Assembly (NCBI GenBank): GCA_937122485.1
Contig: CAKZKH010000099.1
Span: 1 to 46,646, forward strand
Source of the DNA: an uncultured bacterium
GTDB taxonomy: Bacteria; Bipolaricaulota; Bipolaricaulia; Bipolaricaulales; Bipolaricaulaceae
DNA length: 46,646 bases
Direction of reading: 5' to 3'
Part shown: positions 11,515 through 33,599 of the stretch, in pieces
How positions within the stretch are numbered: the first letter of the stretch is position 1
How the letters are laid out: each line of letters begins with the position of its first letter
Notes under the pieces: generated by a model
What the model was told of the DNA's origin: nothing
Seen by the model: only the letters and a program-made list of their open reading frames with translations
Database searches by the model: none
Translations under genes and position numbers: made by a program

Positions 11515-12678
11515 CTAGCAAAACCCCAAGGAGGCGGCCAAAGCAAGGCCGAGGACCTTCGGCCCCAGGGTGGGGAACAGCCGGACCACCGCCCGCCACC
11601 CCTCCGGCCGGGCCAGGCTCGCCCGCACCAGGCGCGAGGGGAAGTCCAGGTCCCCTTTTTCCGCGATCAGCCTCCGCAGGGCTGGATCGCTCAAGACCTT
11701 GACAAGCTGGTCCAGCTGCTTGTCTTCCAGGCCCAGGACGAGCCTGCGGGCCCGCAGGCCAAAGGTTATTTCCTTCCCCAGAGTTCGGCGCCAGCTGCGC
11801 TCGTACCAGGCAGCAGGCTCGGAACGGAGCACGGCCTGACCAGCCAGCCGAGCTCCGCAAGTTCCGAAAAAGAGGCCGCCGCCGGTGAGGGGCTTGACTT
11901 GAGCTGCAGCGTCCCCCACAAGGAGCACATTCCCATGGGCTGTCTTTCGGGGCGGGCCGATGGGGATAAGTCCTGCCGTCCAACCCACCACCGGGGCCCC
12001 AGGAAACCGCCGCCTGAGAAACTGCCGCAGCAGTTCGGCTGCCGGATGACCTTTGGAAGTGGCCAGCCCCACACGCAAGACCCCATCCTCGGCCGGCACC
12101 ACCCAGGCCAACAATCCCGGGGCCACGCGCTGCCCAAGGTGAACCTCGACCAGGTCCTCGGGAAACGGGGCTGCGACAAGGGCCTGGAGACCCACGAGGA
12201 GCTCGGCAGGCCCGGGAAGACCAGCCCAGCGGCAGACTCCGCTCACAGGTCCGTCCGCGCCAATCAGCCTTTCGGATCGAACCGGGCCCGCGGAAGTGGT
12301 GACCATCTGTTTGGAGGTCCCCAGAGCTTTGATCCCCAGGCGCACCTCGGCCCCTGCTTCCTGAGCAAGACCCAGAAGCCAGCGGTCCAGGTTGGGGCGG
12401 TCGAGCACGCACCCCTTGACCTGGGCCGACCGCAGCTCCACGGCCTGTCCGCTGGGAGGGACGAGGCGCAAGCCACAGATTTCCCGCAGGACGAAAGCTC
12501 TGGGCACGTGGAGGGCCTCGAGGAACCGGGGGCTGACCAGGCCAGTACAGCGCAGGGGATGCGAGGGCGCGCGCTCCAAAACCAGGACTCGGGCTCCTCC
12601 TTGAGCAGCAGTGCGGGCAGCCACGGCCCCGGCCGGCCCTCCACCCACCACCACCACGTCAAAGGCCTCCACCCTCAC
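11515..12678 (-). CDS. Geranylgeranyl reductase family flavoprotein
   Basis: The 387-residue product is an FAD-dependent oxidoreductase. The Rossmann dinucleotide motif VVVGGGPAGAVAARTAAQ is at the N-terminus, the second FAD motif is LLVGDAAAQVKPLTGGGLFF, and CTGLVSPRFLEAL matches the substrate-pocket motif of geranylgeranyl reductases. The family reduces isoprenoid double bonds in lipids, quinones or polyprenols; the substrate is not readable here. The start is GTG at 12678, overlapping the upstream stop as ATGTGA, with GAGG seven bases upstream; a second GTG at 12672 is possible. The long open frame further upstream runs inside the isomerase gene and is an artefact of high GC. Confidence 0.85.
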   Translation of the reverse strand: MRVEAFDVVVVGGGPAGAVAARTAAQGGARVLVLERAPSHPLRCTGLVSPRFLEALHVPRAFVLREICGLRLVPPSGQAVELRSAQVKGCVLDRPNLDRWLLGLAQEAGAEVRLGIKALGTSKQMVTTSAGPVRSERLIGADGPVSGVCRWAGLPGPAELLVGLQALVAAPFPEDLVEVHLGQRVAPGLLAWVVPAEDGVLRVGLATSKGHPAAELLRQFLRRRFPGAPVVGWTAGLIPIGPPRKTAHGNVLLVGDAAAQVKPLTGGGLFFGTCGARLAGQAVLRSEPAAWYERSWRRTLGKEITFGLRARRLVLGLEDKQLDQLVKVLSDPALRRLIAEKGDLDFPSRLVRASLARPEGWRAVVRLFPTLGPKVLGLALAASLGFC

Positions 12679-13709
12679 ATGGGGACCTCGTCCATCCGGC
12701 GCTTGAGCTCCTGGATGACCCGAACGGGCGCGGGGTCCACCCCGTTGACCAGAGCCAGGTACACGCTGACCCAATCGCCGAAGTAAAGGAGGTACAGGGC
12801 CTGACCAAGGAGGTCTTGGCCTTCGCCCCACAGTTCCCAGAAGGGAAGGGAGCGGGCGCGGAGGAGGTCCTTGAGGGTCTCCACCCGGAGCGCGTTGCGG
12901 GGATGGTCCAACGCCGTGCGCAAGAAGATCACGGCCCCTTGGGGAAGGACGGGGCTGGTCAGCTCCCAGCCCACGATTTCGTTGTGGCAAAGTTCAGGCA
13001 GCTCGGCCCAAAACGCTGGCTGCTTGGCGTTCTCGTTGATCTGGGTCTTCCAGCGGAAGGCCACCGGGGCCGTGGCCTCGGCCCCATAGACAAGGGGCAC
13101 CTTGCCCTGCAATTCCCGAGCCAGGCCCTGGGCCCGGTTGCCCTCCTGGTGCGGGGCAAGCTCCGCGGCCAGGTTTTCCAGCCCCTCCAGGGCCAGGGAG
13201 AGTTTTCCCCGAAGCAGGCCCCAGCGGTCCATCAGGCCCAAAAGAGGAAAAAGAAGGTAGCCCAGGGCTGCCCGGGGCGGAAGGCCCCGCGGGATCTGAA
13301 TCCAGGGAATGCCCTGCTTCGTGCACATCTGGCCCAGCTTGCCTCCCGAGCTGACCGCCAGCCGCCGGGAAGTTTTGCCCTCCGCCTGGGCGAACGCGGC
13401 CAAAGTCTCCTCTGTGTCCCCGGAGTAGGACAAGGCGATGACCAAGCTCTCCGGGCCTACCCAGGGCGGCAACGAGTACCCGTGGACTACCACGGTCTCC
13501 ACGTCCGCGAACCGGGCCAGGAGGTCCCCGGCGATGCCCGAGCCGCCCATTCCCAGGACCACCAGGCGAGAGAAGCCCCGGAGGGAACCGTCGTCCACGC
13601 GGTGGGCCAGGCCCAGACCCTGGCGGCACTGCTCCGGGAACCGTGCCAGAAGGTTCAGCACGCCACTCTTGTCCACTTTAGCCAACTCGGCCCAGTTCAA
13701 CTGTCTCAT
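12675..13709 (-). CDS. Bifunctional phosphoglucose/phosphomannose isomerase-type SIS-domain protein
   Basis: The 344-residue protein belongs to the archaeal/bacterial PGI-PMI family. The SIS domain carries VLGMGGSGIAGDLLARF, the sugar-phosphate motif SYSGDTEETL and SSGGKL. The C-terminal half contains NENAKQPAFWAELPELCHNEIVGWE, which holds the Glu/His expected for isomerase catalysis. It interconverts fructose-6-phosphate with glucose-6-phosphate and mannose-6-phosphate, linking glycolysis with mannose-based glycans. The ATG at 13709 overlaps the upstream TGA as ATGA, and GGCGGAG abuts it, so translation probably reinitiates. The next gene follows with a two-base overlap. Confidence 0.9.
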   Translation of the reverse strand: MRQLNWAELAKVDKSGVLNLLARFPEQCRQGLGLAHRVDDGSLRGFSRLVVLGMGGSGIAGDLLARFADVETVVVHGYSLPPWVGPESLVIALSYSGDTEETLAAFAQAEGKTSRRLAVSSGGKLGQMCTKQGIPWIQIPRGLPPRAALGYLLFPLLGLMDRWGLLRGKLSLALEGLENLAAELAPHQEGNRAQGLARELQGKVPLVYGAEATAPVAFRWKTQINENAKQPAFWAELPELCHNEIVGWELTSPVLPQGAVIFLRTALDHPRNALRVETLKDLLRARSLPFWELWGEGQDLLGQALYLLYFGDWVSVYLALVNGVDPAPVRVIQELKRRMDEVPM

Positions 13710-27003: not shown

Positions 27004-27077
27004 CCCTCCTCCTTCCACGGTCAGGCGAAAGCAAGATAGCCCGTGGGCTCAACCTTGGCAAAACAGGTACACGGCCG

Positions 27078-27105
27078 TTGCACCATCTGCACAGCTTTCT
27101 ATAAT
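27078..27105 (+). promoter_or_regulatory. Predicted promoter of the acyl-CoA-synthetase-like/livGF operon
   Basis: TTGCAC (27078-27083), a 16-base spacer and a perfect TATAAT (27100-27105) lie within the open frame that extends upstream of the ligase gene. Transcription would begin near 27112. The first usable start codon must therefore lie downstream, which supports GTG 27136. Confidence 0.6.
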
Positions 27106-27135
27106 GGCCGCTTCGGGGAGATTCCCACCACCACC

Positions 27136-28782
27136 GTGGCCAACCTCTACAAACGTAAGATTTGGCTCCGCCAGTACCCGGCCGGCGTGCCTGCCGAGCC
27201 CGTTGTCCCCGAGTCTACTGTCCTGACCCTCCTCGAGGAAGCGGGGAAGCGGCATGCGCACCGTCCGGCCGTGCACTTCTACGGGACGGCTCTGACCTAC
27301 CGCCGCCTCCGTTGGGAAGTGGAGCGGTTCGCCTCGGGCCTCGTCGCCTTGGGGGTCCACAAGGGTGATCGGGTGGGGTTGTGTTTGGCCAACACGCCCC
27401 AGTTTGTGATCGCCTACCTTGGGGCCCTCCGGGCGGGGGCGGTTGCCGTAGCGTTGAACCCCTTCCAGCCGCGGGCTCAGTTGGCGTTTCAGCTGGAACA
27501 AAGCGGAGCCGGCTGCGTAGTTTGCCAGGACCTGTTCTACCCCGCCCTGGAACGTTCGGGGGCCAACCCCGGCGAGGTGGTGTGGGCTCCGGTCCGGGAG
27601 TACCTTCCCCTGTGGCGTCGCTGGCCGGTCCAGCGCCAGCCCACACCCCGCAGGCCGGCCATCACCACCTTTGGCAGTTTGTGTCGGGCGCGCACCTTGG
27701 GGAACCTGCCCGAGCCCGGCCCACAAGATCCGGCCGTCCTGGCCTACACCCAGGGTTTGGACGGCCCTCCCCAACCTGTGCTCCTCACCCACGAACACCT
27801 CATGGCCGCGGTGGCCCGGTGGCGATCCTTCTGGCCGGGCCTGGAAGAAGGACGAGAGGTAATCGCCGCCCTTCTCCCCTTGTACCGCGTACCCGTTCAA
27901 AGTTCGACGCTTCTGCTTTCCCTCTCCCTCAAGGCCACCCTCGTTCTCTTCACGTCCCCTGACCTCAACGACATCCTCCCCGCGGCGCGGTACCAGCAGG
28001 TCACGGTCTTCCCCGGTGAGCCCGCCACGTTCATCGCCCTGGGCAACCATCCTCGCACCCGTTGGGTGCCTTGGCGAAGGATGAAGCTGATCCTCGCCGA
28101 GGGGGAGCCCCTGCCCGAAGAGGTCGCCCGCCGATGGGAAGAGCACACGGGGACGTTGATCCACGAAGCGTACGGGGCCACGGAAGCCGCCGGCCTCACC
28201 CACTGCACCCCCCTGCACCGCCTCCGACCCGGCTCGTTTGGGGTTCCCTTGCCCGGGATCGAGGCCCAGGTGGTTCACCCCCGCACCCCCCACCCCCTCC
28301 CCCCGGGACAGATTGGGGAGCTGTGGATTGGTGGACAGAGCTTGCCCACCGGAAATTGGGGCGGGAACAGAAGCGCCGCGTTCGTGGAGCGCGAGGGCCG
28401 CACCTGGTTTCGCACGGGCGACCTGGTGCGCATGGACGACGCTGGGTACTTCTACTACTACGACCGCCTGGGAGGGCTTGTGCTCCACGGCGACGAAGAC
28501 ATCTACCTCAGGGAAATCGAAGAGGCGTTGGGGGAACACCCCGGGGTGAAGGCCGCGGCGGTGGTGCCCACTTTGGGAGATGAGGGGACCCTCGCGCTCC
28601 AGGCCTTTGTTGTGCCCCGGAGCGGAGGAACCTCCTTGCCCAGCGAAGAGGCCCTTCGGGCCTACCTGCGGGACAAGCTGCCCCCGTCCAAGGTCCCCCA
28701 CCGCCTCGAGTTCCGCACCGAGCTGCCGCTGTCCCCGGCCGGACGGGTGCTGCGGTCGTTGGTAAGCAAGGAAGGAATGTGA
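27136..28782 (+). CDS. AMP-dependent synthetase/ligase-like protein with degenerate catalytic motifs
   Basis: The product (548 residues from GTG 27136) has the full length and order of an acyl-CoA synthetase: TALTYRRLRWEVERFASGLVALGVHKGDRVGL, then the adenylation core and C-terminal lid. YGATEAAG (Tyr346), RTGDL (Arg426) and REIEEAL are kept. The phosphate loop, normally TSGTTGxPKG, reads TQGLDGPPQPV (205-215), and the catalytic lid lysine is Arg537 (SPAGRVLR). Loss of both makes normal adenylation doubtful. It may have become a binding or regulatory protein, or accept a changed chemistry. It overlaps livG by one base, tying it to the transporter. The start is less certain: GGGGAG lies 14 bases upstream. 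Confidence 0.8.
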   Translation: MANLYKRKIWLRQYPAGVPAEPVVPESTVLTLLEEAGKRHAHRPAVHFYGTALTYRRLRWEVERFASGLVALGVHKGDRVGLCLANTPQFVIAYLGALRAGAVAVALNPFQPRAQLAFQLEQSGAGCVVCQDLFYPALERSGANPGEVVWAPVREYLPLWRRWPVQRQPTPRRPAITTFGSLCRARTLGNLPEPGPQDPAVLAYTQGLDGPPQPVLLTHEHLMAAVARWRSFWPGLEEGREVIAALLPLYRVPVQSSTLLLSLSLKATLVLFTSPDLNDILPAARYQQVTVFPGEPATFIALGNHPRTRWVPWRRMKLILAEGEPLPEEVARRWEEHTGTLIHEAYGATEAAGLTHCTPLHRLRPGSFGVPLPGIEAQVVHPRTPHPLPPGQIGELWIGGQSLPTGNWGGNRSAAFVEREGRTWFRTGDLVRMDDAGYFYYYDRLGGLVLHGDEDIYLREIEEALGEHPGVKAAAVVPTLGDEGTLALQAFVVPRSGGTSLPSEEALRAYLRDKLPPSKVPHRLEFRTELPLSPAGRVLRSLVSKEGM

Positions 28783-29546
28783 TGGCCGCCTTCTTCAAGT
28801 GCGCGGGCCTTTCCAAGCGGTTCGGAGGCGTGCAGGCCGTCCGCGGTGTGGGGTTCAACCTCCTCCCCCAAGAGATCCTCGGTCTCATCGGACCCAACGG
28901 TGCAGGAAAAACCACGGTGGTGCGGATGATCATGGGGCTGGTTCGCCCGGAGCAGGGCCACCTCTTGTTCAAGGACCGCGACATCACAAGGATGTCCCCC
29001 TGGCGAAGGGTATCCCTGGGGTTGACCGGGACGTTCCAGAACAGCCGTCCACTTCGCAACCTTCCTGTCCTGGCCAATGTCATGGTCGCTTGCCAATCGC
29101 CGCGTGTGGCCCGGCGAGGCCAGTGGCTCAAGACCATGGAAGCGCGGGCCTTGGAAGCGTTGGAATTCGTGGGCCTGGCCGACCTGGCCATGACCCCGGC
29201 CGCCTCCCTGTCCCAAGGGGAGCTCAAGCGACTGGAAATTGCCCGGGCCCTGTCCACCGAGCCGGAGTTGCTGGTCCTCGACGAGCCGTTTGCCGGCCTG
29301 AACGAGGCTGAAACCCGGCTGTTGGCCAACTCCCTGGCTCAGCTCCGCCGGGGGGGCAAGTTCGGCCGCGTCCACAGCGAAGGCTGTGCCATGATCATCG
29401 TGGAGCACAAATTGGCCGAACTCATGCGCCTGGCGGACAGAATCCTCGTCCTCCACTTCGGGGAAGTGCTGGCGGAGGGCAGGCCCGAGGACGTGGTGCG
29501 GGACCCCCGGGTTGTTGAGGCTTACATCGGCGCCGAGGTGGCCTGA
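28782..29546 (+). CDS. livG: Branched-chain amino-acid-type ABC transporter ATPase LivG
   Basis: The 254-residue ATPase of the LivG class has Walker A GPNGAGKTT, Q-loop FQNSRPLRNLPVLANV, signature LSQGELKRLEIARAL (LSQGE rather than LSGGQ), Walker B LLVLDEPFAGLN and H-loop IIVEHKL. The VVEAYIG ending is typical of LivG. It energises uptake of branched-chain amino acids or related amides and carboxylates; the substrate cannot be read. The ATG at 28782 overlaps the preceding stop by one base, with AAGGA five bases upstream. A nine-residue insertion (KFGRVHSEG) sits before the H-loop strand. The matching permeases lie on the opposite strand, downstream. Confidence 0.92.
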   Translation: MAAFFKCAGLSKRFGGVQAVRGVGFNLLPQEILGLIGPNGAGKTTVVRMIMGLVRPEQGHLLFKDRDITRMSPWRRVSLGLTGTFQNSRPLRNLPVLANVMVACQSPRVARRGQWLKTMEARALEALEFVGLADLAMTPAASLSQGELKRLEIARALSTEPELLVLDEPFAGLNEAETRLLANSLAQLRRGGKFGRVHSEGCAMIIVEHKLAELMRLADRILVLHFGEVLAEGRPEDVVRDPRVVEAYIGAEVA

Positions 29547-30274
29547 TGCTCGAGGTCCGTAGCCTTGTGGTCCAATACGGGAAGGCACAAATCCTCCACG
29601 GCGTATCTCTGGACGTAGGGGCTGGGCAGCTGGTGGCCCTCGTCGGACCCAATGGCGCCGGAAAGACCACCACCCTCAGGGCCATCGCCGGTCTGGTGAC
29701 TTGGGACCTCAGGGTTCTCCGTCGCCAGGCCTTCCTTTCCGGGCAAATCCGATTCCTGGGCCAAGAGGTTCAGGGGCTGCTCCCCCACCGAATTGCTCGT
29801 CTGGGCCTGGTGTTGTGCCCGGAGCGACGGAGGCCTTTCCGAGAGTTGACGGTTCGCGAGAACCTCCTTGCAGGGGCCCTGGCCCAGAAGGACGTTCGAC
29901 AGGTCCACAATAGACTGGCTGAGGCGTACGACCTGTTTCCAGCCCTGCGGGAGCGGGAGCGCCAACGGGCGGGAACCCTGTCCGGGGGAGAGCAACAGAT
30001 GCTGGCCGTTGCCCGCGCCCTCATGGCCGCTCCCAGGCTGCTCCTCATCGATGAACCTTCCACCGGCCTCGCTCCCCTCGTCAAGCGCAGCGTGTTCCAA
30101 CAGATTCGAGCGGTCCGAGACAAGGGCTTGCCCGTGTTGGTTGTGGACCAGGACGCGTCCTTGGCCCTGTCGTTGGCCGACCTGGGTTATGTGCTGTCCC
30201 AAGGTCAGGTGGTGGCCCAGGGGCCGCAACTGTTGGGGGACGACACGGTGCGGCGTTCGTTCCTAGGTCTGTAG
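29546..30274 (+). CDS. livF: Branched-chain amino-acid-type ABC transporter ATPase LivF
   Basis: The 242-residue partner ATPase has Walker A GPNGAGKTT, a LivF-type ENLLAGAL after the Q-loop region (LCPERRRPFRELTVREN), signature LSGGEQQMLAVARALM and Walker B LLLIDEPSTGLAP. It keeps the usual LivF feature of lacking a His in the switch (VLVVDQD). Between Walker A and the Q-loop it carries a slightly long segment (TWDLRVLRRQAFLSGQ) compared with the usual GxIxFxG. The ATG overlaps the livG stop as TGATG. The last 12 bases overlap the end of livM on the other strand. Confidence 0.92.
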   Translation: MLEVRSLVVQYGKAQILHGVSLDVGAGQLVALVGPNGAGKTTTLRAIAGLVTWDLRVLRRQAFLSGQIRFLGQEVQGLLPHRIARLGLVLCPERRRPFRELTVRENLLAGALAQKDVRQVHNRLAEAYDLFPALRERERQRAGTLSGGEQQMLAVARALMAAPRLLLIDEPSTGLAPLVKRSVFQQIRAVRDKGLPVLVVDQDASLALSLADLGYVLSQGQVVAQGPQLLGDDTVRRSFLGL

Positions 30275-31312
30275 GTGCGGAATCTGGCGGAGCGAGGCCC
30301 GACAGGCCCGGCACACCCTGCGGAAGAACGCATTTTTTGTACGACAGCGTGGGCAGTCGAACTCCAGCTTCTCCCTGGCCCACTGGGCAAGGCCCTGGGG
30401 CAAGAAGCGGAGAAACACCAACACCACCAAGGCGAACACGAGGAGGCGGTACTCGGAGAACGCCCGCAGGTACTCCATGGCGGGGAACAGGAGGAACACC
30501 CCCACCACAGGCCCGTAGATGGTCCCCATCCCCCCAAACATGGTCCAGATCACGGGTTGAAAGGACATGAACATGTCCAAGGTGGAGGGACCCGCCGTGC
30601 GCAGGAAGTGGGCGTGCAGGGCCCCAGCCAAGCCCCCGACCAATCCGGCCAGGCTGTAGGCCTCCAGTTTGTACCTGGTGGTGTCAATGCCCAGCGCCCG
30701 TGTGGCCACCTCGTCCTCGCGAATGGCCTGAAGGACCAAGCCGAACGAGGATCGGGTCACCCCCCACAGGACGAGCAGCACAACCACCGCCAGGCCCACC
30801 ACGATGTAGTACTCCTCCAACCGCGAAGAAGCCAGACGGCTGATGCGAAACAACCCCAATTCGCCCCCCGTGAACCGGGACAGGGACACCACCACACCGA
30901 GGAGCAACAAGGGGAAGGCCAACGTGGCCAAAGCGAGGTAAGGCCCGCGTAGGCGAAGACAGGGAATCCCCACCACCAAGCCCGCGAGGAGGGCTGCAAC
31001 CGCCCCCAAGGGGATGCTCACGGCCGGCCCCCAGCCCAGCCTGAGGTTCAGGAGCGCCGCTCCATAGGCACCCACCCCGAAGAACAGGGCGTGCCCCAAG
31101 CTCACCTGCCCAGCGTAGCCGGCCAGGAGGTCCCAACTCGCTGCGTACATGGAGAACGTGGCAGCCAGCACCACCACCCGCAGAACGTAAGGATCCTTGA
31201 CCCAAACGGGGACGACGAACAACAACACCCCGAACAGGAAGGCCAGCACCCGGCCGGGAATAGAGAAGATCTCGTCCCAGATGGAACGAACCCGCCAGCG
31301 GGTGCCCCGCAT
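30263..31312 (-). CDS. livM: Branched-chain amino-acid-type ABC permease LivM with C-terminal zinc ribbon
   Basis: The 349-residue membrane protein has eight to ten hydrophobic helices and the LivM motifs GYAGQVSLGHALFFGVGAYGAALL, RGPYLALATLAFPLL, AIREDEVATRALGID and GGMGTIYGPVVG. After the last helix and the usual FLPQGLA ending comes an added tail with two CxxC pairs (Cys320, Cys323, Cys334, Cys337; CPRC and CRAC), the layout of a small zinc ribbon facing the cytoplasm. I know of no such tail in characterised LivM. The start is ATG 31312, with GAGGAG upstream, overlapping the end of livH. It is convergent with livF. Confidence 0.9.
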   Translation of the reverse strand: MRGTRWRVRSIWDEIFSIPGRVLAFLFGVLLFVVPVWVKDPYVLRVVVLAATFSMYAASWDLLAGYAGQVSLGHALFFGVGAYGAALLNLRLGWGPAVSIPLGAVAALLAGLVVGIPCLRLRGPYLALATLAFPLLLLGVVVSLSRFTGGELGLFRISRLASSRLEEYYIVVGLAVVVLLVLWGVTRSSFGLVLQAIREDEVATRALGIDTTRYKLEAYSLAGLVGGLAGALHAHFLRTAGPSTLDMFMSFQPVIWTMFGGMGTIYGPVVGVFLLFPAMEYLRAFSEYRLLVFALVVLVFLRFLPQGLAQWAREKLEFDCPRCRTKNAFFRRVCRACRASLRQIPHLQT

Positions 31313-31313
31313 C

Positions 31314-32180
31314 CTACCGCTCCTCGAGCAGCCGAGCCCCGAACAGGCCTTGTGGGCGAACCGCAAACACCATCAGCATCACCAGGAGTCCGACCCCCGT
31401 GCGCAAGTAGGCGCCGCCGGGGACGAGAAAGACCACCGTGACCTCAGCAAAGGCCAAAATCACCGCCCCCAGGACACTCCCCCACAGGCTGCCCAGGCCC
31501 CCAAGGACCACGGCCGCCAGCACAATCACCAACGGATGCGTCCATTTGTGGGGTTCCACTGCGTACAGTGGGGCCACGGCCGCCCCAGCCAAGGCGGCAA
31601 GGACGAGCCCCAGGGCCACCACCACCCGGCCCAGCCCAACCACATCCACGCCCATCAGGGCCGCAGTCTCCCGATCCTGAGCCGAAGCCCGAATCGCCAG
31701 TCCCAACCGGGTTCTCCACAACAGCAACCACACGGCAAGGAGGGCCACCACGGCCAGGGCCAACGTGGCCAGCTCCTGATGCCCGACGCGGATTCCCCAC
31801 AGGACGGCGTACCCGGGGAAGGTGGCGGGCACCGTGCGAAAGGCCCCGCCGAAGATGCGGATCACTACCTCTTGCACCAGGATCGCGATGGCCAAGGTGG
31901 ACATCAAAACCGTGGATTCGCGCTCCCGGCCTGGCTCCACAAACAGGCGAAGGAGCAACAACCCTCCGGCCACGACCGCGGCCGCCGTAAGGGCCAGGGC
32001 CGGTCCCAGCCCCCAACCCAGCCGGACCTGAAAGAAAAACACACCGTACGCCGCGGCCATGAAGAAAGCTGTGTGGGCGAGGTTCATGATCCGGGCCACG
32101 CCGAACACCAGCATGAACCCCAGGGCCAGCATGGCGTACAGGCCACTCAACACCATCCCGTGGACAAGGATCTCCACCAC
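31314..32180 (-). CDS. livH: Branched-chain amino-acid-type ABC permease LivH
   Basis: The 288-residue permease has the LivH pattern: GLYAMLALGFMLVFGVARIMNLAHTAFFMAAAYG at the N-terminus, the EAA-like RASAQDRETAALMGVDV, and GGLGSLWGSVLGAVIL near the end. It pairs with LivM to form the membrane channel. The start is uncertain: GTG 32180 or 32177 lies just past a hairpin with no ribosome site; ATG 32156 has GGAG 14 bases upstream. I keep the longer form, because its residues MVEILVHGMVLSGL match the family start. Its stop overlaps the livM ribosome site. Confidence 0.9.
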   Translation of the reverse strand: MVEILVHGMVLSGLYAMLALGFMLVFGVARIMNLAHTAFFMAAAYGVFFFQVRLGWGLGPALALTAAAVVAGGLLLLRLFVEPGRERESTVLMSTLAIAILVQEVVIRIFGGAFRTVPATFPGYAVLWGIRVGHQELATLALAVVALLAVWLLLWRTRLGLAIRASAQDRETAALMGVDVVGLGRVVVALGLVLAALAGAAVAPLYAVEPHKWTHPLVIVLAAVVLGGLGSLWGSVLGAVILAFAEVTVVFLVPGGAYLRTGVGLLVMLMVFAVRPQGLFGARLLEER

Positions 32181-32230: not shown

Positions 32231-33541
32231 TTACGGCTTCCACTTGGCCACAACCCAGGGGGGGATCACGTAGGGGACGGTGCCGGGATAGCTCACCACC
32301 AGGTCGGGGTTGGCCGCATCGGGCTTCCACTGCCGAGGCCAAAAGGCCAGGAGCTTACCGTCCTGCCACTGCACGCCGATCCCGGTGGCGAACTCCGGAC
32401 CCCACTTCACATCGTGGAGCTCGTCGAACACCACCCGCCCCATGGTGGAGAGGTAGTCCGTGGCCTCCAGAGCTTTGATCACCGCGTCGGCGCCCAAGCT
32501 GCCGGCCTTCTCCACCGCCTGGGCCAGGATCTTGACCGCGTCGTACGTGCCCGCGGTGTAGATGGGAAGCTCCCCGAAACGGCCCACAAAGGAGTTGATG
32601 AAGGGGACAGTGGAGGCCGTGATGGCCACGTCGTGGGCGTAAATCCCCACAGTGGCGGTGTAGGCCCCGAAACCGCCTGTGGCCTCCAGGAACCCTTGGC
32701 GCATGGCTTCCACGTTGACCCCCACCACGGCAGCCGGCACCTGGAGCCTCCCCCAATCCCGGGCGAACGGGATGCCAGCCGGGCCGGAGAACACGGCGAA
32801 AATGATGTGTGCTCCAGCTTTTTCAATGGAGGTGAGCTCGGGTGTAAGGCTGGTGGCCAACGCCGAAGGCCGCCAGGTCCCCACCACTTGGGCGCCAAAC
32901 CCCGCCGGGGGAGGCGCTGCCGCAAACAGCTGGACCCAACCTACAATGGCATCGGCCCAAGACAACCCTTCGGCCACAATGGCCACCTTGGGCTTGTCGA
33001 TCTTCAGCTCTTTGCGGAACAGGTCGATCACGTCGGCCAAGAGGAGGAAGGACAGGCGAGCCAGTTGGCTGGAGCGGATGGGCGTGACCCGGAACAGGTA
33101 CTTGTACCGCTTGTAGTCCTTGTCCACACGGCCTTTGAGGATCTCGTCGGAAGCGGCCCCCGCGATAAGGAAGATCTTGCCGTAGTCGGCCGCCACGTCG
33201 GTCATGGGGATCACCGCTTCGGTGCGGAAGCCTCCCACGAGGAAGTCCACCTTGTTCACGGTGATGGCCCGCTCCACCGCCGTCACAGCATCCGTGATGT
33301 TGAGCATCTCGTTGGTGTCGACCTTGACGAGCTCGAGGGTGTAGGTGCGGCCGCCCACGCGGAGGCCCCCCGCGGCGTTGATCTGTTCCGCGGCCATGGT
33401 GGCCCCGTACCAGTGGTGTTGGCCCTGCACGTAGGTCATAGGGCCCACCACCCCAATGCGGATGACGTTCTGTGCGGAAGCACCAAGGGTGAGGATGATC
33501 AAAGCGGCAACACACAGAACCTTCTCTAGGCTGCTGCGCAT
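32231..33541 (-). CDS. livK: Branched-chain amino-acid-type ABC transporter substrate-binding protein (LivK)
   Basis: The 436-residue secreted protein has a signal peptide ending LGASAQN with no lipobox cysteine, so it should be free in a periplasm. The type I periplasmic-binding fold follows (IRIGVVGPMTYVQGQHHWYGATMAAEQINAAGG, VDFLVGGFRTEAVIPMTDVAADYGKIFLIAGAAS, YTAGTYDAVKILAQAVEKAG). The ligand could be an amino acid, amide, aromatic acid or similar. ATG 33541 has GGGAGGTG five bases upstream; the 13 codons before it lie in the promoter. It is first in livK-livH-livM. The neighbouring acyl-CoA-synthetase-like gene hints at an acid ligand, an inference only. Confidence 0.92.
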   Translation of the reverse strand: MRSSLEKVLCVAALIILTLGASAQNVIRIGVVGPMTYVQGQHHWYGATMAAEQINAAGGLRVGGRTYTLELVKVDTNEMLNITDAVTAVERAITVNKVDFLVGGFRTEAVIPMTDVAADYGKIFLIAGAASDEILKGRVDKDYKRYKYLFRVTPIRSSQLARLSFLLLADVIDLFRKELKIDKPKVAIVAEGLSWADAIVGWVQLFAAAPPPAGFGAQVVGTWRPSALATSLTPELTSIEKAGAHIIFAVFSGPAGIPFARDWGRLQVPAAVVGVNVEAMRQGFLEATGGFGAYTATVGIYAHDVAITASTVPFINSFVGRFGELPIYTAGTYDAVKILAQAVEKAGSLGADAVIKALEATDYLSTMGRVVFDELHDVKWGPEFATGIGVQWQDGKLLAFWPRQWKPDAANPDLVVSYPGTVPYVIPPWVVAKWKP

Positions 33542-33570
33542 CGGAACACCTCCCGATGAAAAGTTACCGA

Positions 33571-33599
33571 ACCTTAGCACCCCCGCAGCCGAAGGTCAA
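33571..33599 (-). promoter_or_regulatory. Predicted livK promoter
   Basis: The minus strand shows TTGACC (33594-33599), a 17-base spacer and TAAGGT (33571-33576). The -35 box overlaps the stop codon of the MATE gene. This separates livKHM from the PadR-headed operon upstream. Confidence 0.5.

Follow-up and report, generated by a model that had tools for sequence, protein, structure and literature searches.

A degenerate acyl-CoA ligase homologue with an open reading frame at the head of a Liv-type transporter operon in the Bipolaricaulaceae

Has an enzyme that stands first in a transporter operon, and that has lost much of its catalytic apparatus while its reading frame stayed open, been retired or been turned into something new? 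This question is raised by a stretch of 46,646 nucleotides (contig CAKZKH010000099.1 of assembly GCA_937122485.1, in the following referred to as the window) from an uncultured member of the Bipolaricaulaceae, whose genome comprises 1.54 Mb in 246 contigs and is 96% complete. An earlier note on this DNA had proposed that an acyl-CoA synthetase-like protein with altered catalysis might bind the imported acid as a sensor or chaperone. Our analysis gives a more sober picture, in which a damaged or retired enzyme fits the ligase better than a novel sensor.

The ligase frame and its catalytic motifs

The gene at 27136..28782 on the forward strand encodes a degenerate AMP-binding acyl-CoA synthetase homologue, as indicated by its open frame, its two Pfam domains and its place in the tree. 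The frame can be read from 27043 or from 27136 up to 28782 and is full-length, with 548 amino acids when counted from GTG 27136 as residue 1, which is the numbering used here. It contains no stop, frameshift or truncation, and PF00501 (2.8e-67) and PF13193 (7.1e-13) match across its full length, so that the earlier description of an intact frame and length was correct. The two full-length domains and the fold make the protein an ANL / AMP-forming acyl-CoA ligase by descent. AlphaFold confidently predicts an ANL-like structure (pLDDT 79.5), whose top match in the PDB is the feruloyl-CoA synthetase 8wev (TM 0.77/0.87); such a model, drawn from homologues, is no proof of function. The nearest NCBIfam models, PRK05605 and PRK08314, remained below their cut-offs. 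Long open frames occur on both strands of the region 27043-28782, including an antisense frame of 550 amino acids (27049-28701); as this is expected at 65% GC, it is no evidence of a second gene.

The former A3 motif or P-loop (27748..27780, forward strand) now reads TQGLDGPPQPV and departs from the consensus [ST]SG[ST]TGxPKG. T208, S209, K213 and G214 are lost, with replacements that include T208L, S209D, K213Q and G214P, and T205, G207 and P212 are kept. As all 16 family orthologues have a canonical loop (TGG-T-[SA]-[AG]-QPKG), the P-loop loss claimed earlier is real. The same holds for the lid lysine: in the A10 region PLSPAGRVLR (28726..28755, forward strand) the catalytic Lys is replaced by Arg537 (28744-28746), whereas all 39 other aligned ligases have Lys at this position and possess the K213-equivalent Lys as well. 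The further statement that the other motifs are intact can only partly be maintained. It applies to the A5 motif EAYGATEA (28165..28188, forward strand; Y346, G347, T349, E350), to the A7 motif FRTGDLVR (28408..28431, forward strand; D429) and to Arg444 of A8, and the Mg-binding Glu and the ribose-binding Asp and Arg are thus present (E350, D429 and R444, equivalent to E328, D418 and R433 of T. thermophilus LACS). It does not apply to the remainder of the A8 hinge/CoA loop (28462..28524, forward strand), which carries K446G, D447G, K450L and G453D, and there are additional losses elsewhere (G322E, Y407N, H251R).

What do these exchanges mean for catalysis? Five residues are invariant across 374 ANL enzymes, the A10 lysine among them, and the K492A exchange in CBL makes adenylation much slower (PMC6122825). 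In E. coli FadD, replacing the A3 Lys or the Thr indexed as T325 lowers kcat/Km by about 90%, and P-loop changes in general range from mild effects to a total loss of activity (PMC6122825). As several catalytic residues are lost together in the window ligase, its adenylation is probably abolished or crippled, and the altered catalysis proposed earlier is well supported by the motif losses.

The initiation region (27115..27138, forward strand) is also eroded. The ligases of the relatives start at ATG, nearly all of them with a Shine-Dalgarno sequence 2-6 nt upstream. In the window, an SD-like GGGGAG (27115-27120) is spaced to fit the ancestral start at 27130, where ACC now stands, and the usable GTG at 27136 lies 14 nt away. 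The combination of ATG and a properly spaced Shine-Dalgarno sequence has been lost in the window ligase only, where GTG is available.

Operon context and orthologues

The ligase is followed on the forward strand by the ATPase genes livG (28779..29546) and livF (29546..30274), and on the reverse strand lie the permease genes livM (30263..31366) and livH (31314..32180) and the gene of a Liv-type substrate-binding protein of the Peripla_BP_6 family (32231..33580). The stop of the ligase and the start of livG share four nucleotides (GTGA), and livG has its own strong Shine-Dalgarno sequence, AAGGAAGGA. The overlap had been recognized in the earlier note, which also spoke of a fusion; the two genes are in fact separate. 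An NTGA overlap is kept in 12/12 relatives examined. LivM has a zinc-ribbon-like C-terminal tail with four Cys residues (CPRC...CRAC, encoded near 30270-30350), which recurs in L051-L058, L066 and L067, is conserved in all ten family LivM proteins examined and is absent in two class-level LivM homologues. In L066 (genome G037), where the ligase is canonical, the gene of the substrate-binding protein is split over two frames (12207-13126), possibly by a frameshift or an assembly error.

A ligase with 43-46% identity to that of the window is carried by 16 of the 39 other family genomes. Of the 40 family genomes, 17 have both the ligase and livG and the other 23 have neither; livG follows the ligase in every stretch examined among the relatives, and on contigs of sufficient length the gene order matches that of the window, with ligase, livG and livF on one strand and livM, livH and the substrate-binding protein on the other. 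In a tree of 35 rows, the window ligase is sister to the 16 family ligases with 100/100 support, at an end branch of 1.7 that calls for a long-branch warning. The identical gene order and the 100/100 grouping make the window ligase the positional orthologue of these proteins, and they rule out a paralogue or a horizontal replacement. A class-level search in 100 genomes revealed no closer copy, and a search of genome contigs only distant relatives (25-34%), mostly from Halobacillus. Within its own genome, which encodes five other clear ANL enzymes and has further fragmentary matches on one contig, no ANL relative exceeds 29% identity along the full length, or 36% when a short match is counted.

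The earlier note had suggested examining whether the substitutions are fixed among orthologues. They are not, as 16/16 positional orthologues are canonical, and since all 39 other aligned ligases keep both lysines, the loss of catalytic motifs is, as judged from the alignments, private to the window lineage, which is represented by one genome. An assembly error is an unlikely cause of scattered multi-base codon changes inside an intact syntenic block.

Decay, constraint and the competing readings

In per-gene trees, the branch to the window is 2.18 for the ligase, in comparison to 0.45 for livG, 0.70 for livF, 0.55 for livM, 0.60 for livH and 0.34 for the substrate-binding protein. Between other genera, the ligase is 70.8% identical and behaves like the Liv proteins (61-81%). 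Within the genome of the window, another ligase shares about 80% identity with its orthologues, in comparison to 44% for the Liv-operon ligase. The long branch next to normal Liv proteins and a normal second ligase means that the acceleration is confined to the Liv-operon ligase. Its composition has drifted as well, with 9.7% proline versus 6.4-7.4% in the family orthologues and a GC content at codon position 2 of 0.50 versus 0.43-0.47 in Liv genes and orthologues, and 26% of its deep-conserved columns are lost. Together, the eroded start site and the general acceleration point to relaxed constraint.

Relaxed constraint is not the same as absent constraint. When neutral drift was simulated until the loss of family-invariant columns was matched, the mean number of stops was 6.4, and every one of 300 runs had acquired at least one; when only the deep-conserved columns were matched, there were 4.5 stops and 2.3% of the runs were stop-free, with frameshifts left out of the count. 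A codon branch model with seven taxa rejected omega=1 over the whole ligase branch by 72 lnL units, which is all that we take from this model, since dS on its foreground branch has reached saturation; a history in two phases, constrained at first and then neutral, is still compatible with it. The 111 lost family-invariant columns have a mean BLOSUM62 score of -0.40, which is in the range of functional distant enzymes (-0.06 to -0.51), in comparison to -0.87 (SD 0.15) for neutral change; this mild spectrum may in part be older than the loss of function. Among the positions listed in Table 1 of PMC6122825, 6/14 ligand-contact but 0/12 structural positions are lost (p=0.013), and among the deep-conserved columns the losses are 8/17 at ligand contacts versus 9/49 at structural positions (p=0.025), which is modest evidence, as the classes were assigned by hand. 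The preferential loss of ligand-contact over structural positions hints at selection on the fold. The earlier note had taken canonical orthologues as the mark of a decaying copy; such orthologues are what we found, but a clean neutral decay is disfavoured by the lack of stops and frameshifts and by the kept structural positions.

What explanations exist for such a gene? The one that we prefer, and to which we give about half of our confidence, is an inactivated ligase under relaxed constraint whose frame is held open by translational coupling to livG or by a weak residual function. A pseudoenzyme under selection, which makes no acyl-CoA but still adopts its fold and holds the imported acid and/or AMP in the role of a sensor, a chaperone or a subunit associated with the transporter, is in our view a distinctly weaker candidate. 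It would account for the absence of stops and frameshifts where neutral drift produces 4.5-6.4 stops, for a substitution spectrum unlike the neutral one, for the loss of ligand contacts where structural positions are kept, for the predicted ANL-like fold, and for the retention of residues for ribose, Mg and adenine (D429, R444, E350, Y346). Nevertheless, the orthologues are canonical everywhere else, the start site is eroded, evolution is fast and proline and GC2 have drifted, and the mild spectrum can stem from a constrained part of the branch before the loss. The altered catalysis of the earlier note stands, but nothing in our analysis speaks positively for its sensor or chaperone, nor for a regulator or partner. 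We consider it slightly less probable still that the ligase, retained under selection in its operon, now serves the Liv importer as a non-catalytic sensor or as a subunit that binds the acid or AMP, with the fold and the nucleoside-binding residues kept and the phosphate chemistry deleted.

Two further readings are less probable. The ligase could in principle still be active, perhaps slower, re-specialized or using acyl-AMP, with Arg537 and the altered loop sustaining a measure of catalysis: a single change of the P-loop Lys leaves partial activity, as in K169M of CBL with its 4-fold lower activity (PMC6122825), G214P is shared by L002, a further ligase that this genome encodes, and T205, G207, P212, E350, D429 and R444 are retained. 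Such activity would have to survive the simultaneous presence of T208L, S209D, K213Q, K537R, the A8 Lys and Asp exchanges, Y407N and G322E, and the lost A10 Lys is the one found in all 374 ANL sequences (PMC6122825) and in 39/39 ligases here, which makes this reading improbable. Least probable of all is a young neutral pseudogene that by chance has not yet acquired a stop or frameshift. The eroded start, the relaxed composition and the canonical orthologues would fit, but a loss of 26% of the deep-conserved columns is a point at which only 2.3% of simulations were stop-free, and omega=1 is rejected for the branch as a whole, with the reservation of its saturated dS.

Proposed history and known systems

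For the preferred reading, an inactivated ligase with a frame that is held open, the following history can be envisaged. The ancestral Liv-operon ligase of the family presumably activated an organic acid imported by the adjacent LivKHMGF-type transporter. Acyl-CoA dehydrogenases (PF02771, E<=1e-8) were found in none of the family genomes with a Liv-ligase operon, G000 included, and the activated acid is therefore probably not routed to beta-oxidation. A loss of beta-oxidation as the cause of the decay is unsupported, as the dehydrogenase is absent with canonical and altered ligases alike. In the window lineage, adenylation would have been lost with the Thr and Lys of the P-loop, the A10 Lys and the A8 hinge, after which relaxed constraint could have let the ligase change quickly, with the transporter keeping its normal pace. 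The frame would have stayed open mostly due to its position as first cistron, coupled to livG by the 4-nt overlap, and a weak residual role, possibly binding, may have contributed. An open frame that outlives catalysis is explained most economically if stops or frameshifts in the ligase have polar effects on livG and livF; as livG has its own strong Shine-Dalgarno sequence, the coupling might be dispensable. The comparisons establish the orthology, the gene order, the motif loss, the acceleration of the ligase, its eroded start site and its freedom from stops; what we infer from them is the ancestral activity, the loss of this activity in the lineage and the coupling as the reason for retention.

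If the gene is a relic, it offers a clear example from nature of a leading cistron that has lost catalysis but whose frame is kept open in front of the ABC ATPase to which it is coupled. If the selected pseudoenzyme were true, an import-coupled ligase would have turned into a binding subunit. With either reading, the automated label "long-chain-fatty-acid--CoA ligase" would wrongly credit the genome with acid activation.

Pseudoenzymes derived from metabolic enzymes keep the fold and lose catalytic residues. The window ligase likewise has kept its fold and lost residues for catalysis, in one genome and with any new function being hypothetical; a literature search on ANL pseudoenzymes found nothing relevant. 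With long-chain and medium acyl-CoA ligases of the ANL family it shares the two-domain architecture, A5, A7, the A8 Arg and the fold, and it differs from them by the lost P-loop, A10 lysine and A8 hinge. With the 16 Liv-operon ligases of its family it shares the gene order, the 4-nt livG overlap and 43-46% identity, but theirs are canonical and have ATG starts with Shine-Dalgarno sequences. Finally, a Liv-type ABC importer is also paired with a CoA ligase in the aromatic-acid and pimelate systems of Rhodopseudomonas; the window has the same pairing as these import-and-activate clusters, with a ligase that is predicted to be unable to activate.
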